From Bacteroidota bacterium (GTDB lineage: Bacteria; Bacteroidota; Ignavibacteria; OLB7), in assembly GCA_018266795.1 (NCBI GenBank), contig JAFDZV010000041.1, positions 1-55,196 on the forward strand: DNA of 55,196 nucleotides. The letters run 5' to 3'. The notes under the pieces were generated by a model. That model made no database searches. It worked only from the letters and a program-made list of their open reading frames with translations, and was not told the origin of the DNA. Both the position numbers and the translations under genes were made by a program. Below, one piece after another: positions 11,268 to 38,966 of the stretch (position 1 is the first letter of the stretch; every line of letters starts with the position of its first letter).

Positions 11268-11583
11268 ATCCGATCTCCTGGTTCAGCGCTGCGCTCACGA
11301 TACGGAGCGCGGCGTTGTGTCTTGATTGGCGATTGGGCATAGACTGCTCCTTCTACGCTCCATCCGAAGTTCCTGACGAAACCGGACGGCAATGGCCTGC
11401 CTACCGGCCTTGCAACGACCACGGATAGGAACTCGTCATTCAAACTCAACGGCGGCGTTGCGCCGAAGGGAAGTCTCTCGCATCGATCGCATAATTGCAA
11501 CGATCCCGGTTCCGGAACAACACGGCACCGCTGGGTTCATCAACTCATATTCAGATCGTGAGGAACGTCGTGTTCACGCTACG
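11268..11583. other. Intergenic region holding repeat copy A
   Basis: Apart from the dispersed repeat at 11368-11434, I see no gene. It lies upstream of the TfoX-like gene and downstream of the DUF2628 gene (both minus strand). Confidence 0.5.
11368..11434 (+). repeat. Dispersed ~66-bp intergenic element, copy A
   Basis: The element starts AGTTCCTGAC and ends GGATAGGAACTC, so its ends are inverted repeats (AGTTCCT / AGGAACT). The core GGCAATGGCCTGCC...GGCCTTGC can fold into an inner hairpin. It is about 85% identical to the reverse complement of copy C at 15567-15633 and about 80% identical to copy B at 13480-13544. Confidence 0.85.
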
Positions 11584-12093
11584 TCAGCCCCCGAACAACG
11601 CCATCTCCAGCAGCATGGAGATGAGAACGAAGAGCACGAGGAACCCGGCAGCGGAGGTGACGCTGGTCCCTCCCCGGCGCTCCAGCTCCCGGAGATGAGC
11701 GTTCTCATCGAGGCGCTGCGCGCGCACGTCGCCGATGATGCCGAGCACGTGCGAGAGGTAGAGACGATTGGCAAGGAAGCCGCACACTGCGCCCACAACC
11801 AGGCCGCCGATCAGCACCGTGGACTGCGGCGGCCCCTGCTCCTTGAGGACGTTCAGGAAGATTGCATCCTCGATGAGCGCCTCGGCGATGATGGCGGCAT
11901 ACAGAATGAACATCGCCCTGTACACCTTCCGGTAGCCCATCCAGAGGGTGCAGGCAAGGAAGGCCGCGATGTTGAACCCGAAGGAGCGGGACGTCCCGTT
12001 GATAACGGGTTCCCAGATGCGAATGTAGTATTCGCCGTTGCGGCCCAGAACCGCGCGCAGTTCCTGCTCTGTGGGAATCAACGCGTTCGGCAT
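11584..12093 (-). CDS. DUF2628-family membrane protein
   Basis: This 169-residue protein has the DUF2628 signature near residues 37-60: 'F(G)FNIAAFLACTLWMGYRKVYR'. In the family this reads FNWAAFFFGPLWLLYRKMY. Hydrophobic segments lie near residues 38-55, 60-78, 92-108 and 148-167. A soluble acidic loop (RAQRLDENAHLRELERR) precedes the last segment. It probably sits in the inner membrane; the family has no assigned function. The start ATG at 12093 is preceded by a GGAGGA ribosome-binding site. It stands alone on the minus strand, divergent from the metalloprotease gene. Confidence 0.82.
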   Translation of the reverse strand: MPNALIPTEQELRAVLGRNGEYYIRIWEPVINGTSRSFGFNIAAFLACTLWMGYRKVYRAMFILYAAIIAEALIEDAIFLNVLKEQGPPQSTVLIGGLVVGAVCGFLANRLYLSHVLGIIGDVRAQRLDENAHLRELERRGGTSVTSAAGFLVLFVLISMLLEMALFGG

Positions 12094-12316
12094 GCATCCT
12101 CCAAGGTCATGAGGTTTGAACGATGAGAACTCCGGCGTGCGCCCCGTACCGCCCGCGGAGTCGAAGATAATCCCATGGAGGCCACATGATCATCGGGAAC
12201 TCGCCAGGATAATTGAAGTCAGAATCATGGAACGATCGTCCGGCAACCGGCCGTCTCTGCACGACCCTACCGGCATGAAGCCGTAACCACGGCATCGTGC
12301 ACCGTGTATCTCTTCC

Positions 12317-13297
12317 ATGCGAGCGACCATTGTGCTGATACTATCCGCCCTGCTGTCTGCCGGATGCGACCGCAACGAACCTCGCACCAACGATGGAGCC
12401 GGCCTCCAGCATGCAGCCTCCGCTCCGCGCAACGATGAGATATCGAACAGGCAGGATAGCGCGCGGATCGCATCACTGCGGCACTACATGGAGACGGTGC
12501 GGCCGCTCCACCGGCCGCCAGGTCCGGCTCGCGCGGGCGACTGGCTGGCGACCTACCACGAGCCGGGACAGAGTTTCGGCGAGTATCTGGCGTGCGATCC
12601 GATTCTTCCGTCGGCCGCACGCAGCGTGATACACGTGCTTCCAATCGGCAGGTTCACTGCAACGCAACGTCGCGTGATCGCGCTTGCCGCGGAGTACATT
12701 CATCTCTGCTACGGTCTTCCCGTTACGGTGGATCGCGGCCTCCCCACTGCTGCAATCCCGCGGGGCGCCATGCGGCACAGCGCACGATGGGGCACGCAGA
12801 TCCGCACCGCCTGGATCATCGACTCGCTACTGCGCCCGCGCCTGCCGCGGGATGCGATGTCGCTGATCGCATTCACCGATGCGGACCTGTGGCCCGGCGG
12901 CGACATGAACTTCGTGTTCGGCCAGGGCTCCACACGGCTTCGCGTGGGCGTGTGGTCGCTGTTCAGGTTCGGAGGCCCGAACGCCGCGGGGAGCGCCTTC
13001 GCGCTGCTTCTTGCGCGCACACTGAAGTGCGCCACGCACGAGCTGGGGCACATGTTCTCCTTGCAGCACTGCACGCGCTACGAGTGCAACATGAACGGAT
13101 GCAACAGCCTGGAGGAAATGGACCGCCACCCCCTTGCATTCTGCCCGGAGTGCGCCGCAAAGATCTTGTGGGCCACGGGCATCGATCCGCGCACGCGCTG
13201 CGCCGGGCTGGCCGGCTTCTGCGAGGCGCACGGATTGGGGCAGGATGCGACGCTGCTCCGCACGGAGCTGAACAGACTTGCGGGCTTACAGCCGTAA
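12317..13297 (+). CDS. Archaemetzincin-like zinc metalloprotease, lipoprotein
   Basis: This 326-residue protein starts with a lipoprotein signal peptide (lipobox LSAGC, Cys17), so it would be an envelope lipoprotein. Residues 241-251 read HELGHMFSLQH, the HExxHxx(G)xxH metzincin zinc site with Glu242 as the base. They are followed by Cys252, Cys257, Met259 and the pair Cys276/Cys279. That spacing (HC-x4-C-x-M ... C-x2-C) is specific to archaemetzincins, as is the flanking phrase NSLEEMDRHPLAFCPEC. Human AMZ1/AMZ2 share it. The Gly normally between the zinc ligands is Ser248. The domain spans roughly residues 100-300. Archaemetzincins are peptidases with few known substrates and occur sporadically in bacteria. 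Lipidation is unusual and implies action outside the cytoplasm. Confidence 0.9.
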   Translation: MRATIVLILSALLSAGCDRNEPRTNDGAGLQHAASAPRNDEISNRQDSARIASLRHYMETVRPLHRPPGPARAGDWLATYHEPGQSFGEYLACDPILPSAARSVIHVLPIGRFTATQRRVIALAAEYIHLCYGLPVTVDRGLPTAAIPRGAMRHSARWGTQIRTAWIIDSLLRPRLPRDAMSLIAFTDADLWPGGDMNFVFGQGSTRLRVGVWSLFRFGGPNAAGSAFALLLARTLKCATHELGHMFSLQHCTRYECNMNGCNSLEEMDRHPLAFCPECAAKILWATGIDPRTRCAGLAGFCEAHGLGQDATLLRTELNRLAGLQP

Positions 13298-13303
13298 GCT
13301 GCC

Positions 13304-13333
13304 GATGCCGCCAGGCATGCGGGCAACGGCATC
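13304..13333 (+). terminator. Weak hairpin after the metalloprotease gene
   Basis: A 7-bp stem GATGCCG / CGGCATC (13304-13310, 13327-13333) starts 7 bases after the stop and is followed by CGATTGTTCG. A second small stem (GCTTAC/GTAAGC) overlaps the stop codon. This is weak evidence for a terminator. Confidence 0.35.
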
Positions 13334-13479
13334 CGATTGTTCGAGGCGATCTGCTATTTTCGGAGGCCGGTCCGCGTCCCGGCATTCCGCTCGTACAGTA
13401 CCGGCCGGACAATCGCAACCAGGCATCGAGCATCCCTCGCACCAGCACTCCGGCACCGGCTGGCCGCAATTCAGTCAAC

Positions 13480-13544
13480 GTTCCTGACAAAACCGGGCGG
13501 CAACGGCCTGCCTGCAGGCGTTGCGCGGCTATGGATAGGAACTC
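13480..13544 (+). repeat. Dispersed ~66-bp intergenic element, copy B
   Basis: It starts GTTCCTGACAAAACC and ends GGATAGGAACTC, matching copy A with about 13 differences and one missing base. It ends 20 bases before the start of the Bax-inhibitor-1 gene, so it lies in that gene's leader; the ribosome-binding site AGGTAAGGA follows it directly. Confidence 0.85.
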
Positions 13545-13563
13545 TCAGGTAAGGATTCGGTTC

Positions 13564-14313
13564 ATGGCGTTTGAAAAGTCAGGCAACCCGGCGCTCCGGC
13601 GCACTACCTTCTCGGGATTCGAGCCGCTCTCGGCAACGGACCAGGCGATGTCGCTGCACGGCACGATCAACAAGACCGCGATGCTGCTGGCGATCACGGC
13701 CATCACGGCGCTGTGTACGTTCGATCGCATCGGCACGGTGTACAGCTTCCAGCAGGTGGCGCCGCTCCTCTACACGGGCGCAATCGGCGGTCTCGTGCTC
13801 TGCATAGTCATCGTGCTCCGAGGCACGGCCGCCCCGTATCTGGCGCCGGTGTACGCGGCACTGGAGGGACTGTTCCTCGGAAGCGTGACGGCACTCCTGG
13901 AGGATCGCTTCAGCGGGATCGCGATGCAGACGCTGCTCGTCACGCTCGGCATCTTCGTGGTGGTTCTGCTGCTGTATCGCTTCGAGATCATCAAGCCCAC
14001 GGAACGCTTCCGGATGATCGTGGTCTCCGCCACGGCCGGGCTTGCGTTCTACTATCTCATGAGCTTCTGCCTCTCGTTCGCCGGCCTCCACCTTCCGCTG
14101 ATGCACGAGAACAGCACCTATGGAATTCTCTTCAGTCTCTTCGCCATCGTGATCGCATCGATGAATCTGGTGCTGGACTCCGAGTTCATCCGGCGCGGCG
14201 TGGAGATGCGCGTGCCGAAATACATGGAGTGGTACGGCGCGTTCAGCCTGCTGGTGACTCTGGTGTGGCTCTATGTGGAGATCCTTCGTCTGCTTGCGCG
14301 GCGCAGGGGTTGA
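13564..14313 (+). CDS. Bax inhibitor-1 / YccA-family membrane protein
   Basis: This 249-residue protein starts at the ATG at 13564 (MAFEKSGNP), which has an AGGTAAGGA site just before it. It has seven hydrophobic segments. Early family features are the phrase TRTTFSG/ATDQAMSLHGTINKT and 'LAPVYAALEGLFLGSVTALLE' in the third segment. The C-terminus reads WYGAFSLLVTLVWLYVEILRLLA, the family's conserved last helix with acidic residues used in the pH-sensitive calcium leak pore of YetJ. It would be an inner-membrane protein with a calcium or stress-related role. It stands alone; repeat copy B occupies its leader. Confidence 0.92.
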   Translation: MAFEKSGNPALRRTTFSGFEPLSATDQAMSLHGTINKTAMLLAITAITALCTFDRIGTVYSFQQVAPLLYTGAIGGLVLCIVIVLRGTAAPYLAPVYAALEGLFLGSVTALLEDRFSGIAMQTLLVTLGIFVVVLLLYRFEIIKPTERFRMIVVSATAGLAFYYLMSFCLSFAGLHLPLMHENSTYGILFSLFAIVIASMNLVLDSEFIRRGVEMRVPKYMEWYGAFSLLVTLVWLYVEILRLLARRRG

Positions 14314-14759
14314 CCTGCGGATCGGAGCCGCGCCGGCGATCGGTGCAGCCCGATGGCGCGCGGCGGCGAAGCCCCGCCTCGCCGAACGATCGGCGCTTCG
14401 TGATATTCAATACACGCGTTACCTGCATGCGCGGCAAGCGGCCCGGCACCGCCCGCATGCGGACGGAGCAGGCATTGAGGACCGGTACATGAAGATGTAC
14501 TCACGCGGCATCCGCGCACTTCCTAGCTTGCCGGCATGAATGAGAGGGGCCCCTCCCGATACGGATCGGCAGCCTTCGCGAGAGGGAGGGATAATCCGGA
14601 AGCCTGCGGATACTGAGGTCCGGTGGCGCAGTCGCACTCGCGATACAGGCCGGCGCTCGATGCCGATGTAACGATTTTCCACCGGGCATACACTTACGTT
14701 CATATGCAGCGGCATAGAAACAGCAACACCCAATTTCCATAGAGTAACGAGGCAGAAAC
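14314..14759. other. Intergenic region with a GC-rich hairpin
   Basis: No gene is supported in these 446 bases. CCCTCCC at 14551-14557 pairs with GGGAGGG at 14584-14590 around a 26-base loop. A second pairing with the upstream GAGGGGC is possible. This may be a terminator for the preceding gene or a leader structure. Confidence 0.4.
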
Positions 14760-15566
14760 ATGAAGATTGATTCAATAATCCGCTCCGTGGCGGCGACGGT
14801 TGCCTTCGCGGCGGTTGCGAGCGTAGTGGCGGTTGCGCAACCGAAGCTGGAGATCGTTGGCGGCGACACCTATGACTGGGGCAAGGTGAAGTCCAGCCCG
14901 CTCACAACGGTTGTGCAGGTGAAGAACACGGGGAATGCCGATCTGAAGATCGGCGACGTGCGCCCGGGCTGCGGCTGCACCGCCGCTCCCATCGACAAGA
15001 ATCTTTTGAAGCCGGGTGAGGTGGGAAAGATCAGCATCACGATCAAGGTTCCCGGCCACTCCGGCCCGATCGAGAAGATCGTGACCATCTACTCGAACGA
15101 CTCCGCCAACACCGCGCACGTGCTGCATCTGAAGGCGGATCTGCATCCGGTGATCACCTGCACGCCTGCACAGTACATGCTGGTGACGAATGCCTCGCTC
15201 AACACCGAGTCGGCCGCCTCGCCGATGACGATCAAGAACACGGGTGAGACGCCGATCACCATCCAGAAGCCGACGCTTGCGGACGGCGGCAACATCGGCG
15301 TACGGTTCGACATGAACGGTCCGAAGACATTGAAGCCGGGCGAGGAATATGTGCTGAAGGCATTCGTGACACCGAAGAATGCTGCAAGCGTGACCGGTAC
15401 GCTCAACGTGAAGACCTCCAGCAGCGACATGCCGTCGTTCGATATCACGGTCAGCGGCACGATGAACCAGCCGTCCGTCTCGCCGCGCTCGGCAGTGGCT
15501 CCGCCCGCAATGGCAACGCCGCCGGCATCGGCAACGCAGTCCGGCACCAAGACCACGCCGCACTAG
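14760..15566 (+). CDS. Exported DUF1573-domain protein
   Basis: This 268-residue protein has a signal peptide (hydrophobic residues 10-26, cleavage near VAVA-Q). Residues 35-125 form a DUF1573 domain: 'TYDWGKVK...TTVVQVKNTGNADLKI..VRPGCGCTAAP', with the diagnostic C-G-C-T at about residue 73. DUF1573 is an Ig/ASH-like fold widespread in secreted FCB proteins. A second Ig-like domain (residues 140-235) repeats the N-T-G-E-T-P-I-T-I pattern. The last 30 residues are a Pro/Ala/Ser/Thr tail without a T9SS motif. It is probably periplasmic; no enzymatic role is known. AACGAGG precedes the start. Repeat copy C follows its stop directly. Confidence 0.9.
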   Translation: MKIDSIIRSVAATVAFAAVASVVAVAQPKLEIVGGDTYDWGKVKSSPLTTVVQVKNTGNADLKIGDVRPGCGCTAAPIDKNLLKPGEVGKISITIKVPGHSGPIEKIVTIYSNDSANTAHVLHLKADLHPVITCTPAQYMLVTNASLNTESAASPMTIKNTGETPITIQKPTLADGGNIGVRFDMNGPKTLKPGEEYVLKAFVTPKNAASVTGTLNVKTSSSDMPSFDITVSGTMNQPSVSPRSAVAPPAMATPPASATQSGTKTTPH

Positions 15567-15633
15567 GAGTTCCTGTCCGTAGTCGCTGCAAGACCGGCAG
15601 GCAGACCATTGCCACCCGGTTCTGTCAGGAACT
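15567..15633 (-). repeat. Dispersed ~66-bp intergenic element, copy C (inverted orientation)
   Basis: Starting on the base after the TAG stop, this copy reads GAGTTCCTGTCCG on the plus strand and ends TCAGGAACTC. It is the reverse complement of the consensus, with about 10 differences from copy A over 66 bases. It retains the terminal inverted repeat and the GGCAATGG..TGCCTGCCGG core. Confidence 0.88.
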
Positions 15634-15666
15634 CCGGTGGCTCGCGTACAACCTGCAGTGAAGAGT

Positions 15667-15703
15667 GAATCCCGGCTGCCGACGGCGGCCGGGATTCTTT
15701 GTT
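15667..15703 (+). terminator. Strong intrinsic terminator
   Basis: A perfect 10-bp stem GAATCCCGGC / GCCGGGATTC (15667-15676, 15688-15697) with an 11-base loop is followed by TTTGTT. It lies 100 bases after the DUF1573 stop and ahead of the GNAT gene. It also rules out the longer in-frame start of that gene at 15699. Confidence 0.8.
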
Positions 15704-15830
15704 ATCCAGCCGGGATCGGCGTCAGACGCCCGTCCTCCTCCGTTCATCCACCGATCATTACCTTCCCCCGGTACAGATGCTGCTGCCGCGGAGGCCGGAC
15801 GGTTCCGCGCGCCGCAACGGGAGACCTGCC

Positions 15831-16676
15831 ATGCACGTGAAGCACTATTCATCCGCAACGGAGTTCCTCACCGAGACGGAGCGATTTCTGCTGAAGGCGG
15901 AGACGCGGAACAACCTGATCCTGGGCATTGCGCGGAGCGCCGAACGGGAGGCTGCGGAGCTGCGCACGCCTCCCGCGATCGAACCCTACTTCGCGGCAGT
16001 GCTGCACAACGGCGAAACGGTATTGTGCGCGTTCAGAACGCGCGCGGACCGTCTGGGCATCACCGGCACCGAACACCCCGACGCATTGCACGTGCTCGCC
16101 CGGCACGCCCACGCCGCATGCCCGGAGGCATATCTGATGATGGGCCCGGAGCCGGATATCGCATCCTTCGCCCGGACGATGGCTGCATATCGCGGGAAGC
16201 AGGCACGGCGGCATCGGGCACAGCGGCTCCATGAACTTCTCGCAGTACAGCCGCCGGCCCCTCCTCCCGGCCGTTTGCGCGTCGCGAACGACGCCGATGC
16301 CGCGCTGCTGGCAGAATGGGTGGCGGAGTTTCTCGCGGAGGTAGATGACACCGGCAACGCCGCGGAGATGGCTGCCGCGCGGATCCGCTCCGGCGCTCTC
16401 TTCTTGTGGGACAACGGCGGCCCGGTTTCCATGGCGGCCTGGAGCGGGAAAACCCCGGCCGGCGTGCGAATCAACTTCGTCTACACACCGGCGGAACTGC
16501 GCGGGCGAGGGTATGCGACGGCGTGCGTGGCGGCGCTGAGCGCGAAGCTGCTTCGGGAGGGGAATCGCTTCTGCTGCCTCTACACCGATCTCGCCAATCC
16601 GATCTCCAATGCGATCTACAGGCGAATCGGCTATGAGCCCCTCTGTGATTGGGGAGTGTATGCGCTGGATGGGTGA
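15831..16676 (+). CDS. GNAT-family N-acetyltransferase
   Basis: The 281-residue protein starts at the ATG at 15831, just after a GGGAGA site. The upstream open frame runs into the terminator. The C-terminal half (about residues 140-281) is a GNAT fold. Motif A reads VYTPAELRGRGYATA, the (R/Q)xxGx(G/A) acetyl-CoA pyrophosphate loop, and motif B reads LYTDLANPISNAIYRRIGYEP. The N-terminal 135 residues form an additional domain typical of a two-part GNAT group (phrases LKAETRNNLILGIA and PEAYLMMGPEP). The acyl acceptor is unknown. It is convergent with the cystatin gene. Confidence 0.9.
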   Translation: MHVKHYSSATEFLTETERFLLKAETRNNLILGIARSAEREAAELRTPPAIEPYFAAVLHNGETVLCAFRTRADRLGITGTEHPDALHVLARHAHAACPEAYLMMGPEPDIASFARTMAAYRGKQARRHRAQRLHELLAVQPPAPPPGRLRVANDADAALLAEWVAEFLAEVDDTGNAAEMAAARIRSGALFLWDNGGPVSMAAWSGKTPAGVRINFVYTPAELRGRGYATACVAALSAKLLREGNRFCCLYTDLANPISNAIYRRIGYEPLCDWGVYALDG

Positions 16677-16701
16677 TGGTATGAACGAGGCGGGATCGGC
16701 G

Positions 16702-16733
16702 GCGCAGGACCCGGGTTGTATCGGGCCCTGCGC
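16702..16733. terminator. Hairpin between convergent GNAT and cystatin genes
   Basis: GCGCAGGACCCG at 16702-16713 pairs with CGGGCCCTGCGC at 16722-16733 with one mismatch; the loop is 8 bases. It lies 25 bases after the GNAT stop in a convergent gap, so a bidirectional terminator is likely. Confidence 0.55.
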
Positions 16734-16845
16734 GCCTGCCTGTAGTTGCAACGAGCGCTCACGAGCATATGCTGCAGAGCGCTGCCTGCCGGATGCGCTG
16801 CGGTGGAAAGCCTTGCACCCCGTTCGCACGGCACCGCATTGCGAA

Positions 16846-17196
16846 TCACTGCTTGGGATCGGGCACCAAGTCCCAGGAACCGAGATGATAGGAGCCATCA
16901 ACCCGGTGCCAGACCACCACCTTCGCCCTGCGTACGGTCTTGCCGCTCTTGAGCTTCAGAAGCAGTTCGTAGTTCACTCCTTCAACAACCTGCTGCCGCG
17001 CGCTCACGATGCCGACGAGCTTGATCTTCTCCGCCTTGTTCCGCTCCGCAACTGCGAACTGTGCTGCCTTGCGTACCTCTGCATCCTTTATCGAAACATC
17101 GCTGTAGGCCCCGACCTTCTGGGCATATCCAACGCTGTACGACAGCGCGGCAAGCACTACTGCAATGATGGATGTGATACGGCTGACCTTCTTCAT
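16846..17196 (-). CDS. Exported cystatin-domain protein
   Basis: The 116-residue protein starts at the ATG at 17196, which follows ACGAGGAAC; the nine in-frame codons before it are poor. A signal peptide (residues 1-25, cleavage YAQ) is followed by a cystatin fold. It has the N-terminal Gly (GAYSDVS), the phrase AEVRKAAQFAVAERNK of the long helix, the inhibitor loop QQVVEG (consensus QxVxG) in strand 2, and a C-terminal W-containing hairpin (LGSWDLVP). These are the three papain-binding elements. Cystatins inhibit C1 cysteine peptidases; in bacteria the fold is rare and usually exported. The mature protein would sit in the periplasm or outside, where it could protect against host or competitor proteases (inference). 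Confidence 0.85.
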   Translation of the reverse strand: MKKVSRITSIIAVVLAALSYSVGYAQKVGAYSDVSIKDAEVRKAAQFAVAERNKAEKIKLVGIVSARQQVVEGVNYELLLKLKSGKTVRRAKVVVWHRVDGSYHLGSWDLVPDPKQ

Positions 17197-17228
17197 CGTT
17201 GTTCCTCGTAGTATGGATAGCACGGCAC

Positions 17229-17273: not shown

Positions 17274-17380
17274 CGGAGATAGGGACTCGATGCCGTCGGG
17301 AGGGTTTAAGAACACATTACACTGCCGGCCTGAACAACGCCCCTGCATTGCAGTGCACGCGGACGTCGCGGAGAGCCCGG

Positions 17381-22033: not shown

Positions 22034-23239
22034 ATGCCTACACGAAACCGCCGGCGCGCTGCCCAGGCTCTGCTCAATACATCGCTCGGCTCGCGAATCC
22101 TGGAAACGCCGCTGCCGCCGGTACTTGGCGCATGCAGGCGGCATTCGCTCACTCTGGAGAGCGCCGTCTTCGATTTCTATACCACGTCAACATCGACACA
22201 CAATCCGATTCCGGGGCCGGATGCCAACGTCTGGTTCGGTGTCGGCAGCACCGTTGGATCGTTCAACATCGGCCTGCAGGCCGTGCAGGAGTGCGGGCCT
22301 GCATCCGGATTATCGCAGGGGATCGTGGCGGACAACGCGGGCAATATCTGGTTCGGCCAAAGCTTCGGGGCCAACCAGATCGCGCGTTCCAGCACCGGCT
22401 GCGCAATCACCACCTACCCCACGGCGGGCGCAACGGTGGATCTGATCCTCGGGCCGGACGGAAACATCTACTTCAGCGATGGCGGCGCCAGGCTCGGCAG
22501 CGCCACACCGGGGGGCCTGATCACGGAGTTCCCCACCACCTACGGCACTGTGGATCCCACCGCAGGTCCCGGCAACACCATCTGGTTCGGTGAGTTCGGC
22601 CCGAGAGTGGGCCGGCTTTCGCTGGACGGAAGTCCGCTGCAGGAATGGACCGTAACCGCGGCCGCCATGGCCGGGAGCCTGGTCACCACGCCGGACGGAT
22701 CGGTCTGGTACGGTACGGACGTCATCATCGGCCGCATCACACCGGCGGGGCAGGTGGAGGAATATCCCATCGGCCGCGCAGGCGCATCCAACCTGCTGTA
22801 CGGCCCGGACGGCAACGTCTGGTTCGCCTGTCAGTCAACCCCGCAGGTAGGAATGGTTACCCCCGCGGGGCAGGTGTCGCTCTACGATATCGACGACCTG
22901 CCGATGGGGATGACATTCGGCCCGGACAACAAGCTCTATGTAGGGCAGTTGAGTTACTTCCTCTCCGTGGTGGATCTGGGCGGCTCGGTGAGCAATGTGC
23001 CGCTTACCGGAGCGATCCCGTACGCACCGCATGTAGGCCCGGACGGCAATATCTGGTTCGGCGGCAACCCCTGGCTGAATCCGGGTGTGCCCACGTTCAC
23101 GGGCCGCATGACGCCCGGGGGAGTGCTGACGGAATTCCAGACGTACGGCTATCCGAACAGCTTCCTCAACGGATACGACGGCGTAACCATGTACATGGGG
23201 ATGAGCTCTGCCACACTGGGAGTGGCACATGTCATATAA
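22034..23239 (+). CDS. Streptogramin-lyase-like beta-propeller, first tandem copy
   Basis: This 401-residue protein starts after GGAGAAGATC. It is made of about seven blades, each with a strand like GPDGNIWFG or NVWFAC and then a turn G(R)I.P.G.V.EYP. This is the NHL/virginiamycin-B-lyase (Vgb) pattern. Vgb opens streptogramin B rings using a His and a Glu pair. Here the phrases read WFGEFGPRVG and WFGGNPWLN, and I cannot see the expected His-Glu pair. Antibiotic inactivation is therefore not supported. It has no signal peptide. It is followed after 51 bases by a second copy with its own ribosome-binding site, so this is a tandem duplication and probably one operon. Confidence 0.88.
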   Translation: MPTRNRRRAAQALLNTSLGSRILETPLPPVLGACRRHSLTLESAVFDFYTTSTSTHNPIPGPDANVWFGVGSTVGSFNIGLQAVQECGPASGLSQGIVADNAGNIWFGQSFGANQIARSSTGCAITTYPTAGATVDLILGPDGNIYFSDGGARLGSATPGGLITEFPTTYGTVDPTAGPGNTIWFGEFGPRVGRLSLDGSPLQEWTVTAAAMAGSLVTTPDGSVWYGTDVIIGRITPAGQVEEYPIGRAGASNLLYGPDGNVWFACQSTPQVGMVTPAGQVSLYDIDDLPMGMTFGPDNKLYVGQLSYFLSVVDLGGSVSNVPLTGAIPYAPHVGPDGNIWFGGNPWLNPGVPTFTGRMTPGGVLTEFQTYGYPNSFLNGYDGVTMYMGMSSATLGVAHVI

Positions 23240-23290
23240 ATCCGATTGACGCAGTCAACCAACGTACCACAGCATTCACTGGAGAGGATC

Positions 23291-24499
23291 ATGCCTTTAC
23301 GCAATCACCTTCGCTTCACGGACATCATGCTCAACAGCGCTGCGGGCGCGGCGATGCGGGCACAGCAGCTTCCTCCGGCACTCGCCGCAAGCACGTTGCA
23401 CTCCATCGTTTCAGCCGGGGTGACGTTCGATTTCTATCAGACCAGCACGATCACCGTGGGTCCGATTCTCGGTCCGAACAACAACATCTGGTTCGCCGTG
23501 GGAACCTCCGTCGGGCAGTTCGTGCTTCCGCAGAAGACGATTCAGGAATGCCCCCCAACGCAGGCCGGGCTTGCGCAGGAGCTTGCAGTGGACCAGACCG
23601 GCAACATCTGGTTCGGCATCAGCTTCGGGGCACCGGTGATCGGCCGGAGCACCCCCGGCTGCAATGTGACAACCTACCCCACCAACGGCCCCACCAGCAA
23701 TGTGGTTCTCGGGCCGAACGGGAACATCTACTTCAGCGATCAGGGACAGAGGATCGGAAGCGCAACGCCAACCGGCATCATCACGGAGTTCCCCACGACC
23801 TTTGCCACCGTTGATCCGATCGTCGGTCCCGGCAACGCCATCTGGTTCGGCGAGTTCGGCCCCAGGATCGGACGGCTCTCGATTCCGAGCAATCAGGTGA
23901 CGGAGTGGACGGTGACGGCGGCGGCCATTGCATCAAGCCTGCTGGCCACGCCTGACGGCTCGGTCTGGTACGGCACGGATCTCACCATCGGCCGCATCAC
24001 GCCGGGTGGCCAGGTGCAGGAGTACCCGATCGGAAACGCCGGCGCGTTCAATCTGCTCCTCGGCCCCGACGGCAACGTCTGGTTCGGCTGCCAGTTCAGT
24101 GCACAGGTGGGAAAGGTGACGCCGGCCGGGCAGGTATCGCTCTACAACACGAACGATCTTCCGATGGGCCTCGCCTTCGGTTCGGACAACAAGCTGTACG
24201 TTGGCCAGTTGAGCTACTTCCTCTCGGTGGTGGATCTGAACGGGAACGTGAACAATCTGCCGCTCACCGGCGCGATTCCCTATCCGCCGCATCTGGGGCC
24301 GGACGGGAACATCTGGTTCAGCGGCAATCCGTATTTGAGCCCGGGTGTCTCCTCGTTCATCGGACGCATCACCCCCGGAGGCGTGCTTACGGAGTTCCAG
24401 ACCAGCGCCTATCCGAACAGCTTCCTGAACGCGCCGGATGGTTCCGCCATCTACATGGGGATGAACACGGCCCGCTTCGGCGTGATCAATCTGGTGTAG
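23291..24499 (+). CDS. Streptogramin-lyase-like beta-propeller, second tandem copy
   Basis: The 402-residue protein is started at the ATG at 23291, with GGAGAGG at the right spacing; the 15 upstream in-frame codons are not needed. It aligns over its full length with the preceding protein, sharing long phrases such as SVWYGTD..IGRITP.GQV and LYVGQLSYFLSVVDL. The N-terminal 40 residues differ more (MPLRNHLRFTDIML). It has the same seven-blade Vgb/NHL pattern and the same lack of a clear catalytic pair. The divergence is moderate, so the duplication is not recent. Function unknown; ligand binding or signalling is possible. Confidence 0.88.
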   Translation: MPLRNHLRFTDIMLNSAAGAAMRAQQLPPALAASTLHSIVSAGVTFDFYQTSTITVGPILGPNNNIWFAVGTSVGQFVLPQKTIQECPPTQAGLAQELAVDQTGNIWFGISFGAPVIGRSTPGCNVTTYPTNGPTSNVVLGPNGNIYFSDQGQRIGSATPTGIITEFPTTFATVDPIVGPGNAIWFGEFGPRIGRLSIPSNQVTEWTVTAAAIASSLLATPDGSVWYGTDLTIGRITPGGQVQEYPIGNAGAFNLLLGPDGNVWFGCQFSAQVGKVTPAGQVSLYNTNDLPMGLAFGSDNKLYVGQLSYFLSVVDLNGNVNNLPLTGAIPYPPHLGPDGNIWFSGNPYLSPGVSSFIGRITPGGVLTEFQTSAYPNSFLNAPDGSAIYMGMNTARFGVINLV

Positions 24500-27132: not shown

Positions 27133-27157
27133 GACATTCTCCGGTTGAGTGTTTGAA

Positions 27158-27209
27158 GTTCCTGGCAACAGGCTGATCCGGCAATCCACGGCCTCTCGCA
27201 ACCAGGAAC
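27158..27209 (+). repeat. Possible diverged copy E of the intergenic element
   Basis: The ends GTTCCTGG and CCAGGAAC are perfect 8-bp inverted repeats. The first 11 bases (TTCCTGGCAACA region) match copy D, and CCGGCAAT..ACGGCC recalls the common core. At 52 bases it is shorter than the others, so it may be a deleted copy. Confidence 0.5.
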
Positions 27210-27427
27210 CTGGTTCTTTGTACGCTCGCCTGCGGCTCGCTGTAGTGCCTGGTCAGGTGCAGGAACAGGCAGAGCGGAGGAGAACAACATCCTGTCCGGT
27301 CGGGAACCCTTGGGTCTACAACACAATATGAGTCCGCACTTCGGCGGAAGGTCTACGCATGAACTACGTACATCGCACCGCGGAAAGGATAGGTCGCATT
27401 GCGATAGGTATGCCAGCACGCGCCCGG

Positions 27428-32351: not shown

Positions 32352-33069
32352 ATCGATTCTCCGAAAAAAACTTCTCTCATAACGAACAATGCGCTGCGAT
32401 AATAGCGGCAGCCCCGGCAGACGCGGGTACTCATTTACTACACACGGCCGTGACGAACGTTCACGCATTGCCCGCAACAGCCGAAACTGCAGGCTCTCCG
32501 GCGCTTCGCCCTCCGCGGAGCCCACGATGAAGCGGCGTTCGTCTCTCCTCTGGCACGCTCCCGGCCCCGATCGGCGTGCCACGCGGTACAAGGGTTTGCG
32601 GGCGATCGGCCATCGGGCGAATCACTATCTGAGCGGCGGTTGTGGCGGTTCCTCCACTGTGCAGGAATCGATCGCAACACCGGGACGCATGGGAGCTCCC
32701 GGGTCGTTGGCTGCAGGTTTATCCGAGATCGCCATAACTCGAAGGCAGTCACCACGCAGATGCAGTACGGCATGCAGCACATCACCGAACGGAACGTGGA
32801 TGCCGCTTCCAGCCGTGAGCCTGGAGCCCGGAAGAGCATGCAGCGTGCTACGGATGGAATGGGATTGCGGATGATGCATGCGGTGCGCGAACGATCGCTC
32901 GATCCTGACGGGGATCATGGTAGGAACCCTGCACGCCGGCTACCTTTCACGCAGTCAGGAAACAGAGCGGCGCGGCCGAACGGAAAATGATGTATGGGGA
33001 TTCGCGCGCCGGACGTTGATCAACAGCAACCCGACCCGCCCGATACATCGCGGTGCCGGAGTTCGAACC
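32352..33069. other. Long intergenic region, no feature called
   Basis: These 718 bases separate divergent genes. Open frames here are shadow-like (Arg/Ser/Pro-rich) and lack ribosome-binding sites. It should hold both promoters; I cannot assign boxes. Confidence 0.45.
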
Positions 33070-33924
33070 ATGAAGACAGCACTCCATATCACGATCTGGC
33101 TGCTGGTGCTTGCAGCAGCGGCAACCGGCGTGTTCTATCGAACGCCGGAGCCGCACATCCGGATGACGACGGTCCGCGGCGAGCAGGCCACATATCAGGG
33201 AAGCGGGCTGTACCGATACGACCCCGCTTCGGTGGCACGCGAGGGAATCGTGTGGGACAGCGTCAATCTTCTCATCGGGCTTCCGCTTCTCGCGCTCGGC
33301 ATCCATCTGCGCAGACGCGGCTCACTGCGCGGAAGGCTGCTCCTTGCCGGCCTGTTCTTTTACTTCTTCTACAACTATCTGATGTATGCCACGATGACGG
33401 CGTTCAATCCGTTCTTCCTTGTCTACGTTGCGATCTTCGCGCTGAGCTCCGTTGCATTCGTTGCCAACCTCGGGGAGATAGATGTGGCCGGGCTTCCGGC
33501 CGTGATCACGCCGCGCTTTCCACGGCGCACATTCATTGCGTATTCGATCGGGATGGGAGTGATGATCGCCCTGCTCTGGCTTCGCCTTACGGTCTCGATC
33601 ATGGCCGCCGGAACATTTCCCGCAGAGATCGCCGGCATGAACACGCTGCAAACGCAGGCTATGGATCTGGGAATGATCGTGCCGCTCACGATATCGGCCG
33701 GCCTGTTGCTGTGGCGCCGCAGACCGTGGGGCTACATGCTTGCTGCAATTGTTGCGAGCTTCGGGCTCATGATGTGCATCGTGCTTCCGGCATGGATTGC
33801 CGTGCCGCTGATTCAGGATGGGCGGATCGATCTGGTGGAGGCGGTCCCGTTTCTCGCGGGCTGCGCTCTGGGCCTGACGCTGGCGATATGGTTCGCGCGA
33901 AGCATACGCGAGGTGCGCGCATAA
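33070..33924 (+). CDS. Eight-helix membrane protein, unknown function
   Basis: The 284-residue protein starts at the ATG at 33070 (MKTALHITIW), with CCGGAG 10 bases before. Eight hydrophobic segments are visible, the first near residues 4-22. After that comes a periplasmic loop with TPEPHIRMTTVRGE.ATYQGSGLYRYD, and then paired helices (for example LLLAGLFFYFFYNYLMYA and LAAIVASFGLMMCIVL). The YQGSGLYRYD phrase recurs in a family of hypothetical FCB membrane proteins. It is the first gene of a two-gene set; the next begins 48 bases later. No function is known. Confidence 0.75.
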   Translation: MKTALHITIWLLVLAAAATGVFYRTPEPHIRMTTVRGEQATYQGSGLYRYDPASVAREGIVWDSVNLLIGLPLLALGIHLRRRGSLRGRLLLAGLFFYFFYNYLMYATMTAFNPFFLVYVAIFALSSVAFVANLGEIDVAGLPAVITPRFPRRTFIAYSIGMGVMIALLWLRLTVSIMAAGTFPAEIAGMNTLQTQAMDLGMIVPLTISAGLLLWRRRPWGYMLAAIVASFGLMMCIVLPAWIAVPLIQDGRIDLVEAVPFLAGCALGLTLAIWFARSIREVRA

Positions 33925-33972
33925 CATCCCGCACATTGCGTGGGCATTGCATTCCACAACCGAGGACCAACC

Positions 33973-34329
33973 ATGCGCATCGCACTTGCACTGCTGTTCC
34001 TGATTCACGGCATCGCGCATCTTCCCGGCTTCATCGTGCTGGCACGCGTGGCCACGATGAAGGGGATGCCGTACAGGACAACGATACTTGGAGGAAGAGT
34101 GGATGTTGGCGACATCGGCGCCCGCACGATCGGCCTGCTCTGGCTGCTCGCGGGGGCCGCATTCGTGGCTGCAGGGATCGGCCTCTACGCCGGCGCCGTA
34201 TGGTGGCGATCCGGCGCGCTTGGCGTTGCAGCGTTCTCACTCGTTCTCGGAATTCTCTGCTGGCCCGAGACGCGTATCGGTGTGGTGATCAACGCCGTAA
34301 TCATTGCCGTCATCCTGGGCGTTGTCTGA
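33973..34329 (+). CDS. Small four-helix membrane protein
   Basis: The 118-residue protein starts at the ATG at 33973 after CGAGGACC; 11 earlier in-frame codons are not supported. Four hydrophobic segments span nearly the whole chain, starting IALALLFLIHGIAHLPGFIVLA, then TIGLLWLLAGAAFVAAGIGLY. A 'HGIAHLPGF' motif in helix 1 is common in ABC-transporter-associated or DoxX-like small proteins, but no family is certain. It follows the previous membrane gene by 48 bases and is probably co-transcribed. Confidence 0.75.
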   Translation: MRIALALLFLIHGIAHLPGFIVLARVATMKGMPYRTTILGGRVDVGDIGARTIGLLWLLAGAAFVAAGIGLYAGAVWWRSGALGVAAFSLVLGILCWPETRIGVVINAVIIAVILGVV

Positions 34330-34481
34330 CGATCTCGTTCGGGCCGGATCGCGGCGGCTGCAGCGCCCGTGGCCACGTTGCACTCGCTCGGCCCGGCACC
34401 GCAACACGGAGAGCCTCATATGCCGAGGCGGTGGCATGAACGGCGATGTGCCTGCCGATGATGCACAGGCATTCCGGTCTA

Positions 34482-35042
34482 TCAGCGCCAGACCCGCGGC
34501 CGCTCCGCATCCAGCAGGCGCGCAACCTCCGGCAGCTCCACGCAACGATGCCGCGTTGAGACCCGCCGCCAGATGGAACGCGACAGCCGCCCCCAGTTCT
34601 CACTCCACGCGCGGGGCGCATTCGATGCATCGCAATGAATGACGATCGGGAACGTGTCGCTTCGTCCTCCGAAGCAGAGCATCAGATCCGTTCTGCCGCC
34701 GATCGGCACCAGTCCGCGATCCACACGCAGCGGACCGTCCACGCGCACCTCCTCACGTCCGGACCGGGAGAGGACACGCGCGCCTACAACGCCGCGATCG
34801 TCCCTGTACAGCTCCAACGTATTCCGCAGTCTGCGTGCCGCCGCAACCAGCAGAATCAGCATCAGCACCGAGAGTACGGCCGGTATGACGTACCATCCGG
34901 CGAGCCATCCGACAATGGTCGGCCCCAGAAGCAGAAGCGCCGCCGAACCAACGGCGAGAACTCCGGCCAGGACGGCGAACAGGATCACACGGCCACGTGC
35001 GGCATGGTTGTTGAGAGAGACGGAGAGAAGCAGAACGGGCAT
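34482..35042 (-). CDS. Two-helix membrane protein, unknown function
   Basis: The 186-residue protein is started at the ATG at 35042 (MPVLLLSVSLNNH), with GGAG 8 bases before; the 56 earlier in-frame codons are arginine-rich and doubtful. Two adjacent hydrophobic segments (VILFAVLAGVLAVGSAALLLLG and GWYVIPAVLSVLMLILLVAA) anchor a C-terminal cytosolic domain of about 110 residues. That domain has strands such as ELYRDDRGVVGARVLSRSG and a DTFPIVIHCDAS turn. It may be a PH-like membrane domain protein, but I cannot confirm this. It is convergent with the previous membrane gene. Confidence 0.65.
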   Translation of the reverse strand: MPVLLLSVSLNNHAARGRVILFAVLAGVLAVGSAALLLLGPTIVGWLAGWYVIPAVLSVLMLILLVAAARRLRNTLELYRDDRGVVGARVLSRSGREEVRVDGPLRVDRGLVPIGGRTDLMLCFGGRSDTFPIVIHCDASNAPRAWSENWGRLSRSIWRRVSTRHRCVELPEVARLLDAERPRVWR

Positions 35043-35169
35043 AGACGGAACTCCACGCGGAAGTACGATACGATGGGTACGCTGAGCGGGCCGGGAGTTC
35101 CCGGGCAGGCATGATACCAACTCGCGGGGAGATGGCGAAGTCCATGACAATCCATCGCCCGGCGGCAAC

Positions 35170-35205
35170 CACGTTCTTCCGCGTCTCCACGTTCTTCCGC
35201 GTCTC
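35170..35205. repeat. Two-unit 18-bp tandem repeat
   Basis: CACGTTCTTCCGCGTCTC occurs twice head-to-tail, and each unit is itself two 9-base half-units of similar sequence. It lies in the gap between two minus-strand genes. Confidence 0.7.
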
Positions 35206-35341
35206 CGCACTCGATGCAGACGGAGGGGGCCGCACTATCGGCACGTGCACGCCGGGAGACGGTTTCGAAGTCCCGTCCTCCGCCGCACAACGGCGATGCC
35301 GGCCCGGAGCGGATCTCCGGACCAACATCGTCGCACCGCGT

Positions 35342-35755
35342 TCACCGGGTTGCACCGCTCCAGCGCCCCATGATTGCGCCGGTGATCAGGCAGGCCACGA
35401 GAACGTTGGCACCATCGATCGCAGTAACAATCGGCTTGATGCCGGCGAAGATGTAGTGGGGCACGAGCACCGGCAGCCCGATTCCGAGCCAGAGCACGCA
35501 GCCGATCAGCATCCCCCTGGCCATGGTTGTCGTGTTCGTCCTCCGGACCAGCCAGGCCGTCACATAGCTTGCCAGGATCCAGCCGACGATGTCGGCAGCA
35601 AGCCCGGCCGGATCCACCGTTCCGGCGTCCGCGGCCGGACGCCCCAGAGCAGCAAGCCTGCCGGCGGCCCACGGCGCCGCCGAATACCAGACGAACCCGA
35701 GCGCCTGGTGCAGGACCACCGATACGAGAACTGCGAGGTGATTGATCTTTCCCAT
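35342..35755 (-). CDS. DUF1761-family membrane protein
   Basis: This 137-residue protein starts after an ideal AAGGAGAATC. The N-terminus NHLAVLVSVVLHQALGFVWYSAAPW is the DUF1761 hallmark (helix with H..G..WY....W). Four hydrophobic segments follow. Charged loops carry RRTNTTTMARG, and the last segment (VLVACLITGAIMGRW) is the family's usual end. Members are small inner-membrane proteins of unknown function in many soil bacteria. It is transcribed divergently from the sigma-factor gene. Confidence 0.85.
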   Translation of the reverse strand: MGKINHLAVLVSVVLHQALGFVWYSAAPWAAGRLAALGRPAADAGTVDPAGLAADIVGWILASYVTAWLVRRTNTTTMARGMLIGCVLWLGIGLPVLVPHYIFAGIKPIVTAIDGANVLVACLITGAIMGRWSGATR

Positions 35756-36077
35756 GATTCTCCTTCGTGTTTGTTCTACTGTTTACAATGATGCCCGGGC
35801 CGGCATTCTCCCGCCGCCTCGGCGCGGGTTCACCCGAAGGGCCGGGCGAAGCGGATCGCCGGCTGGTGCGGCTGGCATCCGGAAGCGTATCTTCATGCGG
35901 CCGAAACCGGCGGGTGCACCGTGCGGCGCCATGCGGCAATCTGCGTGCGGCAACCCGCATGCGGAGATCTGCAACAGGGACCGCGCCATCATGTGTGACT
36001 GCGGCGAGCACGAAAAGGGTTCGCCGACCGAATCGTATCCCGGATCACGAATGCAACGAGCGGAGGAACGTCCAACG
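35756..36077. other. Upstream region of the sigma-factor gene
   Basis: The sigma-factor reading frame stays open through most of these 322 bases, but the codons before 36078 are Pro/Arg/Cys-rich and unlike the family. I treat it as the divergent promoter region. Confidence 0.5.
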
Positions 36078-37121
36078 ATGGCGGAGGCCGGTACCAAGGC
36101 CCGGAGCGATTCGGGCACAATGCCTGGAGCCCCAATCGGGGCGATCGATCGGGATGACTTCGCACTCATGGCCGGGCTGCATCGCCGCGCGCTGATGCTG
36201 CACTGCTATCGCATGGTTGGCTGCATGGAGGAGGCGGAGGATCTGGTGCAGGAGACGCTGGCGCGTGCGTGGCGGGGACGGCACACCTATCAGGGACGTG
36301 CACCGTTTCGTTCATGGCTGTACAGGATCGCTACCAATCTCAGCCTGGATGCACTTCGGGAGAGGCCGCGGCGTTCGCTCCCGGTTGCACGCCACCCGGC
36401 CTCCCTGGCGGGCCAGCCGGTGCCGGCATCGATCAACGAGCCGATCTGGCTGGAACCGTATCCCGATGCGCTGCTCCCGCCGGATGAACGCGATCCCGAA
36501 ACGATACTGGCAACGCGCGAGCGCGTGAGCCTTGCGTTCATGATTGCACTCCACGCGCTGCCGCCGCGCCAGCGGGCGGTGCTGATCCTGCGCGATGTGC
36601 TGGAAATGCCGGCGGCGGAGGTCGCGGAACTGCTGGAGCAATCGGTGCCCGCCGTGAAGAGCGCGCTGCATCGCGCGCGCGCAACCATTGCGGAACATTC
36701 GCACGTGGCGGAGACGGCCCCGCGCTCCGCAGCGGACCCGGAGCATGGGGAACGGCTTGCACGATACGTGACGGCATGGGAGAGCGCCGACGTGGAGAAC
36801 CTGATGACGCTGCTGAGGGATGATGCGCGATTCAGCATGCCGCCGATTCCCTCCTGGTATCAGGGACGCGAAGAGATTGGTGCGTTGGTGCGGAACACGA
36901 TATTCCGCGGCGACGCGAAGGGCCGCTGGCGCCTGCTTCCGACAAACGCCGGCGGCAGTGCAGCGTTCGGACTGTATCGCCTGAACGACGGCGGGAGCGG
37001 CTACGGCTTCTACGCCATTCAGGTGCCGACGTTCGCCGGCGGATTGATCACGGACATCACAACCTGCCGCAACACGCGGCTGGCACGATTCTTCGACCTG
37101 CCGGAACATCTGCCGGTATGA
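36078..37121 (+). CDS. ECF RNA polymerase sigma factor with C-terminal SnoaL-like domain
   Basis: The 347-residue protein is started at the ATG at 36078 (MAEAGTKARS), preceded by CGGAGGAAC. Region 2 (about residues 33-105) reads LMLHCYRMVGCMEEAEDLVQETLARAW...FRSWLYRIATNLSLDALR. Region 4 (about residues 175-235) reads LPPRQRAVLILRDVLEMPAAEVAELLEQSVPAVKSALHRAR. The last 115 residues resemble a SnoaL/NTF2-like domain (TAWESADVENLMTLLRDDARFSMPP..SWYQGREEIGALV), as in the SigG/SigX5-type ECF groups. Those tails modulate sigma activity without a classical anti-sigma factor. No anti-sigma gene is adjacent; the SRPBCC gene follows 114 bases on and may be a target (inference). Confidence 0.92.
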   Translation: MAEAGTKARSDSGTMPGAPIGAIDRDDFALMAGLHRRALMLHCYRMVGCMEEAEDLVQETLARAWRGRHTYQGRAPFRSWLYRIATNLSLDALRERPRRSLPVARHPASLAGQPVPASINEPIWLEPYPDALLPPDERDPETILATRERVSLAFMIALHALPPRQRAVLILRDVLEMPAAEVAELLEQSVPAVKSALHRARATIAEHSHVAETAPRSAADPEHGERLARYVTAWESADVENLMTLLRDDARFSMPPIPSWYQGREEIGALVRNTIFRGDAKGRWRLLPTNAGGSAAFGLYRLNDGGSGYGFYAIQVPTFAGGLITDITTCRNTRLARFFDLPEHLPV

Positions 37122-37235
37122 ACGCTTCGGCGGCCGTTCAACGGGTAGCCGGCAGGCAGACATGTTCATTCTGCCCCCCGATCGTGGCCGTGCAGAGCTG
37201 TACGGTTCGGACCACATTCATCGCTGGAGAAGACC

Positions 37236-37670
37236 ATGAAGAAGATCATACATGCGGTTCACATTCACGAGACGCCGGCAATCGTGTACGCTGCGCTCAC
37301 AACGGCCAGAGGGCTCAGCAGCTGGTGGACGCGGATGGTGACGGTGGAAGCGGAGGTTGGCGGCAGGATTCACTTCAGGTTCGCCGATGTCTTCAATCCC
37401 GTCATGATACAGCACACGCTCGAACCCGATCGGCTGGTGGAATGGACCTGTGTGGGAGGACATGAGAACTGGGCGGACAACCGGTTCAGTTTCGCTCTGG
37501 AGGAACGCCGGGAGGACACGATGCTGATGTTCACGCAGGACTATGCGCAGGAGCTGACGGACGAGGTATACGGCACCTACAATTTCAACTGGGGCTATTA
37601 TCTGCACAGCCTGAAGCGCTACTGCGAGGCGAACGAGGGAACGCCGTTCACGCCGCCGGAGATTGCATAA
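37236..37670 (+). CDS. SRPBCC / AHSA1-family protein
   Basis: This 144-residue protein starts MKKIIHAVHIHETPAIVYAAL after CTGGAGAAGACC. It matches the START/SRPBCC fold with an initial strand, a helix (YAALTTARGLSSWWT), and 'EVGGRIHFRFADVFNP' and 'DRLVEWTCVGGHENWADNRFSF' strands. The final helix reads YNFNWGYYLHSLKRYCEANEG. These proteins bind hydrophobic ligands or act as Hsp90-activator-like small domains. It is cytoplasmic. It follows the ECF sigma factor and precedes the nucleic-acid cluster; SRPBCC genes often sit next to ECF41-type sigma factors, which fits. Confidence 0.9.
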   Translation: MKKIIHAVHIHETPAIVYAALTTARGLSSWWTRMVTVEAEVGGRIHFRFADVFNPVMIQHTLEPDRLVEWTCVGGHENWADNRFSFALEERREDTMLMFTQDYAQELTDEVYGTYNFNWGYYLHSLKRYCEANEGTPFTPPEIA

Positions 37671-37690
37671 CCCGATCGGTACCGGACGCA

Positions 37691-38350
37691 ATGCGAGCAC
37701 CGAACTTCAACGATCCGCCCTGCATGCCGGGCAGCGGCAAGAGCGCGGAGCAGTTGCTGGAACTCGCCGGGCCACTTGCCGGAACGCCCGGTGCAATGTA
37801 CGTGGAGCGGCGAGGCATACCGCTTCACATCGCCGAGGAGGCGGGCGTTCGTTTTGCGCCCGACTTCGGCGGCCGTCCCGCGGTTATCGTTGCGATGCGG
37901 GACCGGCACGGCATCACGGCGTTGGTTCACGGCCGGTATCTTCGCACGGCCCGCGGACAGAACAAGATGTTGACCATAGGCGCCGGCGGCGGCATGGTGA
38001 GCGTGCTGGATGGATGGCACGCCGAGCCGCTGATCATCGTTGAAGGGTTGTTCGATGCGTTGTCGATGGCGGCGTGCGGCTGGTCGTGCGCTGCAACGGT
38101 GGGCCGCTGGGCCTCGTGGCTGCCTGATGTCGCGCAGGGCCGCACGGTCTGGCTGGCGTTCGACTCAGCGCGCGCGGCCGATGCCGAGGCGGAACGTTAT
38201 CGCGAGAGGCTGCGGGGCGCATCGCTGTTGAGGCTCAGGCCGCCCGGCAGAAGCAAGGATTGGAACACCGCCCTCGCCAAGCAGGGCATCCCCTCGCTTG
38301 CGCGCTGGCTGCGCCAGACATTGAACAGCGGCAATCGGATTGCGACATGA
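37691..38350 (+). CDS. Toprim-domain protein (DnaG-primase-like core)
   Basis: This 219-residue protein corresponds to the catalytic core of DnaG. It has the phrases YVERRGIP and '[25 protein letters not shown]', equal to the RNAP-basic part of primase. A Toprim domain follows: [10 protein letters not shown] (Glu118) and [13 protein letters not shown] (Asp158). The usual DxD has become D-S-A, so one metal ligand is missing. Near the end [11 protein letters not shown] resembles the primase KD(V/W)N motif. There is no CHC2 zinc finger or helicase-binding tail. Short primase cores like this occur in mobile elements and phage. It starts 20 bases after the SRPBCC gene; its stop overlaps the next start (ATGA). 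Confidence 0.85.
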
Positions 38351-38898
38351 CCGAGATCTACGTAAGCACCGACGTTGAGGTGGACGGCCCGATACCGGGG
38401 CCGCACTCGATGCTGAGCTTCGGCTCCGCCGCGTTCACCGCGGACAAGAAGCTGATAGCCACGTTCACGGCGAACCTGGAGCCGTTGCCGGGCGCCGCCG
38501 GCAGTCCGGAGACGATGGCGTGGTGGGCCGGCCATCCGGAGGCATGGGAGACGTGCCGCCGCGACCCGCGCGATCCGGCCGCTGCCATGGCCGAGTATGT
38601 GCAGTGGCTGGAGGCACTGCCGGGCGTGCCGGTGTTCGTGGGATATCCGGCAACGTTCGACTTCATGTTCGTCTACTGGTATCTGATACGCTTCGCCGGC
38701 CGCAGCCCGTTCAGCTTCTCCGCGATCGACATCAAGACCATGGCGATGGTGATGCTCGGCACGGACTACCGGCGGAGCACGAAGCGGAACATGCCGCGGC
38801 GCTGGTTCGATGAGTCGCCGCACAACCACGTTGCGCTCGACGATGCCATCGAGCAGGGAATGCTCTTCTGCAACATGCTGGCAGAGCGCAACAGATAA
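38347..38898 (+). CDS. DEDDh 3'-5' exonuclease (DnaQ-like)
   Basis: The 183-residue protein begins at the ATG at 38347, overlapping the Toprim stop (ATGA), so the two are translationally coupled. Exo I carries D-x-E at 9-11 (VSTDVEVDG). Exo II is [11 protein letters not shown] with Asp105. Exo III has HVALDDA (His161 and Asp166). These are the four acidic/His residues of DEDDh nucleases, which trim 3' ends of DNA or RNA. It resembles stand-alone DnaQ-like or Rv2179c-like exoribonucleases; the substrate is unknown. Repeat copy D begins right after its stop. Together with the Toprim protein it may form a nucleic-acid processing pair. Confidence 0.88.
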
Positions 38899-38900
38899 GA

Positions 38901-38966
38901 GCTCCTGGCAACACCGGGTGGCAATGGTCTGCCTGACGACCCTGCGACGCCCATGGGTCGGGCCTC
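38901..38966 (+). repeat. Dispersed ~66-bp intergenic element, copy D
   Basis: It begins GCTCCTGGCAACACCGGGTGGCAATGGTCTGCC two bases after the exonuclease stop. It matches copies A-C over most of its length, but the right end (GGGTCGGGCCTCC) has decayed, so the terminal inverted repeat is weaker. Confidence 0.72.

Follow-up and report, generated by a model that had tools for sequence, protein, structure and literature searches.

The miniature elements BrickBuilt, MITE293 and MITE700 of Porphyromonas gingivalis and ATR of Neisseria meningitidis are non-autonomous and have inverted ends that match full insertion sequences (IS) of the IS5 family; BrickBuilt is exclusively intergenic, and BrickBuilt and ATR are given as ~19 copies each (PMC4596501). 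The RUP element of Streptococcus pneumoniae, with 108 occurrences, is 107 bp long, carries IS630-Spn1 ends and uses a TA target, and its mobiliser was deduced from the inverted ends and the target of a resident IS (PMC2229807). Within the IS5 family, the IS1031 group comprises elements of ~860 bp that target TNA and duplicate 3 bp (PMC12016507). Here we describe a family of mostly 68-bp elements with inverted ends, first seen in a 55,196-nucleotide contig of a Bacteroidota bacterium (Ignavibacteria, OLB7; GCA_018266795.1, JAFDZV010000041.1, positions 1 to 55,196; this whole stretch is called the window) and dispersed through its genome. Like BrickBuilt, the elements lie between genes, and as for RUP their mobiliser is deduced from a resident IS. 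In contrast to BrickBuilt and ATR they occupy at least 175 places, are mostly 68 bp long, have TNA-type flanks and include copies at stop codons; unlike RUP they combine IS5-type ends with TNA. The resident IS, of 879 bp, resembles the IS1031 group in target, duplication and length, whereas the 68-bp elements encode nothing and the resident IS itself is broken. The kind is already known, families of miniature inverted-repeat transposable elements (MITEs) linked to an IS being in print for S. pneumoniae (RUP), Porphyromonas and Neisseria; what seems less usual here is how many very small copies there are and that they are placed at stop codons.

Very probably, in our assessment, the elements are MITEs whose family is tied to an IS of the IS5 family that duplicates TNA, and a transposase of this type, acting in trans, spread them. 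The elements, gene-less and mostly of 68 bp (subfamilies S1 and S2) with a sister family S3 of ~155 bp, keep the terminal inverted repeats of an IS5-family IS of the group that duplicates a 3-bp TNA. Copies would persist between genes, and many of them at stop codons, since TAA and TGA are themselves TNA targets and duplication of a stop codon would leave the gene intact. The genome-specific, MITE-type family that a first-pass annotation of the window had proposed is borne out by the inverted repeats at the element ends, by the preferred target, duplicated over 3 bp at some copies, by the IS whose ends match, by the intergenic placement and by the lack of a match in 60 relatives among the candidates scored. 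The link from IS to MITE is clear, and at least 175 copies are enough to measure where small insertions survive; the excess at stop codons makes one idea testable, namely that TAA and TGA are targets at which duplication of the 3-bp TNA is neutral.

Copy number and subfamilies

The genome of the window (5.97 Mb, 71 contigs) was searched with single copies, profiles and patterns. A blastn-type search with copy A of the window found 21 places. Profile R1, built from 20 copies that included copies A, B and C of the window (copy D was outside the building set), gave at least 133 matches up to E 1, at least 121 of them at E ≤ 1e-3, and a second profile, R2, built from 42 copies of subfamily S2, gave at least 145 matches at E ≤ 1e-3. 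The union of the two profiles amounts to at least 175 places at E ≤ 1e-3, a lower bound because at most 150 candidates were scored in each profile search of this genome. Allowing up to 3 mismatches, the left-end pattern matched 210 times, compared with 28 times for the reversed pattern; these counts, together with the 175 profile places, exclude chance genome-wide.

The copies studied were 131 of the 133 R1 matches (E up to 1), the two weakest being dropped; the 54 of the 175 that were matched by R2 alone stand outside the flank and gene tests. Both ends lay within 2 mismatches in 123/131, and 80 of these 123 clear-ended copies were exactly 68 bp long and were used for folding and for the consensus; as expected of MITEs, the elements are shorter than 500 bp and carry no transposase gene. 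The majority consensus of S1 (28 copies) is GAGTTCCTGACAAAACCGGGTGGCAATAGCCTGCCTGCCGGCCTTGCAGCGACTATGGATAGGAACTC, with positions 8 and 9 mixed (T/C and G/A), and that of S2 (42 copies) is CAGTTCCTATCAAAACCGGGATGCGCTTCAGAGCCTGCAGGCCTTGCAGCGCCGAATGTTAGGAACTC. The two are identical at 50/68 positions overall and at 26/41 in the middle. Most copies are diverged and look old. At C9:40204-40337 an S2 and an S1 copy stand in tandem with 2 bp between them, and at C31:10506 the left end is apparently duplicated.

An IS5-family insertion sequence with matching ends

Among the pattern matches, one perfect left end, at C3:249394-249411, belongs to none of the 68-bp copies. An inverted partner end closes it into an 879-bp IS at C3:248534-249412; its ends read GAGTTCCTAACAAAACCGG and GAGCTCCTAACAAAAGGC, and the flanks are TAA/TAA. 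The S1 left end reads GAGTTCCYRACAAAACCGG against GAGTTCCTAACAAAACCGG in the IS, the S2 right end TGTTAGGAACTC against TGTTAGGAGCTC, and the S3 right end, in the better copies, GGCCTTTTGGTAGGAACYC against AGCCTTTTGTTAGGAGCTC. The IS transposase has DUF4096 and DDE_Tnp_1 domains, its frame is broken at two places, and a single copy of the IS was found in the genome. Inactivity of this IS is likely, not proven, because some IS1031-group members use a frameshift; members of that group prefer TNA and duplicate 3 bp (PMC12016507). Judged from its sequence, the 879-bp IS is a member of the IS5 family and probably of its TNA group (IS1031-like), the group name being taken from the duplication type and not from ISfinder. 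The first-pass annotation had looked to a nearby transposase with matching ends as support for a MITE: the matching ends are there, but the IS that bears them lies elsewhere in the genome, on C3.

In a sample of 197 genomes of the class, relatives of the IS transposase at E ≤ 1e-20 were found only in the window's own genome, where the second match is a neighbouring IS5-family IS (C3:246775-247728; L167:2776-3729), ~800 bp from the broken one. This neighbour has an open transposase frame of 284 aa, flanks TTA/TTA and ends GAGCCTATCCCAGA. It is the sole PF13586 match in the genome, but its ends differ, and it is not the obvious partner of the 68-bp elements.

Named genomes contain 67 loci for relatives of the 879-bp IS transposase, and 28 of them were examined for ends with a script that demanded an identical 3-bp flank, not TAA or TTA as such. 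Inverted ends were present at 13/28, mostly GAGNNNCTAACAAAAC, with 13–16 of 16 bases agreeing and a spacing of 835–873 bp, and all 13 loci had a TAA or TTA duplication. The 68-bp elements depart from the GAGNNNCTAACAAAAC motif mainly at bases 4–6; therefore their ends fit this IS group. We infer that the lineage of the 879-bp IS was the mobiliser, acting in trans.

Palindromes of the repetitive extragenic palindrome (REP) or bacterial interspersed mosaic element (BIME) type, mobilised by a RAYT (Y1) transposase, would share the small size, intergenic placement, high copy number and palindromic ends seen here. However, the 68-bp length, the IS5-type ends, the TNA target and the matching IS5-family element in the genome argue against them, no RAYT search having been made, and we consider such an origin extremely improbable. 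The label REP, which the first-pass annotation had set beside MITE, is accordingly dropped in its strict, RAYT-linked sense, as the ends match an IS5-family element.

Target site and gene context

TNA stands on the left in 70/131 copies, on the right in 42/131 and on both sides in 21/131, the expectation from base composition being 3.8% per side. Identical 3-bp flanks, as left by target site duplication, were found in 21/123 clear-ended copies, where 7.4 were expected and none of 1000 shuffles exceeded 16, and flanks of 2 bp or of 4 bp and more showed no clear excess of identity in the same 123 copies. In the copies with TNA on both sides the middle base agrees in 15/21, against 5.1 expected.

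Genes were called with a home-made, frame-specific Markov caller, trained on the fetched loci, which called 74% of the fetched sequence coding. None of the 131 copies spans a gene call, and 4 extend 10 bases into the end of a call. The many intergenic copies that the first-pass annotation had suggested looking for are thus present, and its counter-case, copies inside genes at the same rate, is not what is seen. A stop codon stands at an element end in 28/131 copies, 25 abutting it exactly and 3 overlapping it by one base. At left ends, stop codons were seen in 16/131 copies against 3.9 expected from the left-flank preference among non-coding positions, an expectation that any real genes left uncalled would render too low; we estimate the excess as two- to four-fold. 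TNA targeting explains the stop-codon adjacency only in part, and selection, we infer, accounts for the survival of copies there. A literature search found no paper that treats stop codons as insertion sites of a MITE or IS, which is not proof of absence from print. A gene start lies within 30 bp of 18/74 right ends and of 6/70 left ends (Fisher p 0.014), a weak indication, being one test among several. Copies face either way, and 24/131 have gene starts on both sides.

In a MITE-derived family, some of the copies that sit at a stop codon or a short way before a start might have been co-opted as regulatory 3′ or 5′ elements. The stop codons at left ends, the closeness of right ends to starts and the small surplus of matched changes that the terminal repeats show (see below) would all fit, but survivorship of harmless insertions predicts the same pattern, and genes missed by the caller lower the expectation against which the stop codons are counted; we regard co-option as decidedly unlikely. 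A further scenario, unlikely though well conceivable, is that the MITE load descends from an IS lineage with a TNA target and persists preferentially on stop codons, insertion there being harmless as the stop is duplicated, with some copies now forming hairpin 3′ ends of the preceding genes. If true, stop codons would be a safe harbour for a transposon family amplifying in a compact genome.

Folding and covariation

The first-pass annotation had also suggested a processed transcript end, and a structured RNA, or a 3′-end processing or terminator element kept for its hairpin, would be expected after stop codons; the 28 copies just described, the 3 that overlap the codon included, would fit this. 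Both strands of the elements fold. For S1 the minus strand gives the best fold (−29.9 kcal/mol, z −4.2), and the minus strand folds better in 24/28 full-length S1 copies and in 30/52 S2 copies. The inner stems, however, differ between S1 and S2, the copies occur in either orientation and may have gene starts on both sides, and no Rfam match was found in the window at gathering scores.

Pairs over whole stems were counted in 25/28 S1 and 42/52 S2 copies, and matches in the terminal repeats in all 80; the column shuffles used for comparison ignore the relatedness of the copies. Whole-stem pairing equalled the shuffles, at 90.8% against 90.8% in S1 (279/500 shuffles at least as high) and 88.5% against 88.2% in S2 (113/500 at least as high). 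Pairs changed on both sides numbered 3 in S1 and 7 in S2, against 1.9 and 5.6 in shuffles, over whole stems, and RNAalifold found both-sided change in 3/11 pairs among the 28 S1 copies. The structures did beat versions of themselves slid along the alignment, but this is expected, as they were taken from the consensus. In the terminal repeats (positions 1–12 with 57–68), Watson-Crick matches exceeded the shuffles, with 435 against 415.4 in S2 (1/2000 as high) and 236 against 229.0 in S1 (45/2000 as high), the excess being largest at S2 pairs 9-60 and 12-57. Pairwise co-variation among full-length copies was led by the split between S1 and S2 and by columns outside the stems, with S2 pairs 9-60 and 12-57 among the first.

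The terminal excess leaves an RNA unproven, because the shuffles ignore relatedness and a transposase needs matched ends; sub-lineages or end-matching for the transposase can yield such an excess. Support for an RNA role is at best weak, and an element kept for its hairpin is in our judgement very unlikely. The paired changes in the arms that the first-pass annotation had named as support for a structured element are slight, exceeding shuffles in the terminal repeats and not over whole stems, and its processed transcript end accordingly finds little support.

Comparison with other genomes and points against the MITE reading

Among the candidates scored, no match at E ≤ 1e-3 was found in 60 relatives, which included one same-genus genome and three from the same family, with either copy A or R2 as query; the R2 search scored 84 candidates per genome under stricter filters. 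An exact 27-base pattern had 0 matches in named genomes, a set that the window's own genome may be outside of. In the relative of the same genus, the gene that precedes copy C is represented by an ortholog (72% DNA identity) that ends in TAG; CGG follows directly with no element, and CGG also borders copy C on its far side. For the gene beside C1:170437, the ortholog has a TAA stop and the sequence after it is unrelated, again without an element. Both empty orthologous stop codons would fit insertion after the split; loss is possible too. For C9:144295 no usable alignment with this relative was obtained, perhaps from the orientation used.

Several points weigh against a MITE family mobilised by an IS of the 879-bp type. 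The lone known copy of that IS is broken, and another mobiliser may exist, the transposases surveyed being PF13586 and the IS protein. At 15/28 of the relative loci such ends with a 3-bp duplication were missing, some of these loci being cut by contig ends and one (L223) showing the end motif out of register. An identical 3-bp flank survives in only 21/123 copies, no duplication is visible at copies A, C and D of the window, and C begins the right flank in 52/123, which decay alone may not explain. The gene caller is home-made and blind to genes already split by an insertion. Finally, the comparison with relatives is clear at two orthologous sites only, the intergenic DNA being so diverged that insertion and loss are indistinguishable.

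Copies in the window and the sister family S3

In an unfiltered profile search of the window, copies A to D, all of subfamily S1, matched R1 at E 5.9e-27 to 2.4e-13, the scores of A, B and C arising partly by construction as these copies belong to the R1 building set. The four clear copies first reported are therefore real, with slightly corrected ends. Copy A (11367-11434, plus strand, 68 bp; 84.4 bits, E 2.6e-25) lies between two gene calls and is flanked by CCG and GTC, with no duplication visible. Copy B (13478-13544, plus strand, 67 bp; 80.4 bits) is flanked by a 3-bp duplication, TCA/TCA, at 13475-13477 (plus strand) and 13545-13547. Copy C (15567-15634, minus strand, 68 bp; 89.3 bits, E 5.9e-27) directly adjoins, with 0 bases between, the TAG stop codon at 15564-15566 of a gene that probably encodes a DUF1573 protein. 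Copy D (38899-38966, plus strand; 48.3 bits, E 2.4e-13) has a decayed right end and likewise directly adjoins, with 0 bases between, a stop codon, TAA at 38896-38898. The reported adjacency of C and D to stop codons thus stands, and the right end of copy B lies 19, not 20, bases upstream of a start, the ATG at 13564. The best further R1 match in the window, at E 0.095, is copy B read backwards. Two supposed remnants, at 16735-16757 and 37146-37160, had no match to R1 or R2 up to E 10 in the window search.

What had been taken for a short fifth copy (27158-27209) scored E 2.5 with R1 and 0.2 with R2, and is instead the right end of a 154-bp S3 element at 27156-27309 on the minus strand. The ends of this element are related to those of the 68-bp element, and a 3-bp duplication, TTG/TTG, flanks it at 27153-27155 (plus strand) and 27310-27312. 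A 26-base pattern of S3 with up to 3 mismatches matched 22 places in the genome, against 0 for the reversed control, and the window element was aligned with these 22. A simple motif located both ends in 11/23 aligned rows, 153–157 bp apart, and identical 3-bp flanks were present in 2 of these 11, the window copy and L295 (TTA/TTA). At four S3 places (L291, L292, L296 and L302) the left part is S2-like; parts therefore seem to have been exchanged between the miniature families, and the four places are apparently chimaeras between them.

Other repeats were noted in the window. At 22195-24323, adjacent gene calls contain internal repeats with units around GGCCCGGACGGCAACGTCTGGTTCG, 114–471 bp apart; two 300-bp copies there are 72% alike, perhaps, as a guess, from a repeat protein of the beta-propeller type. 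Segments of ~80 bp at 34323-34402 and 53144-53222 are inverted repeats of one another (78–84%) and possibly represent another repeat or related gene segments.

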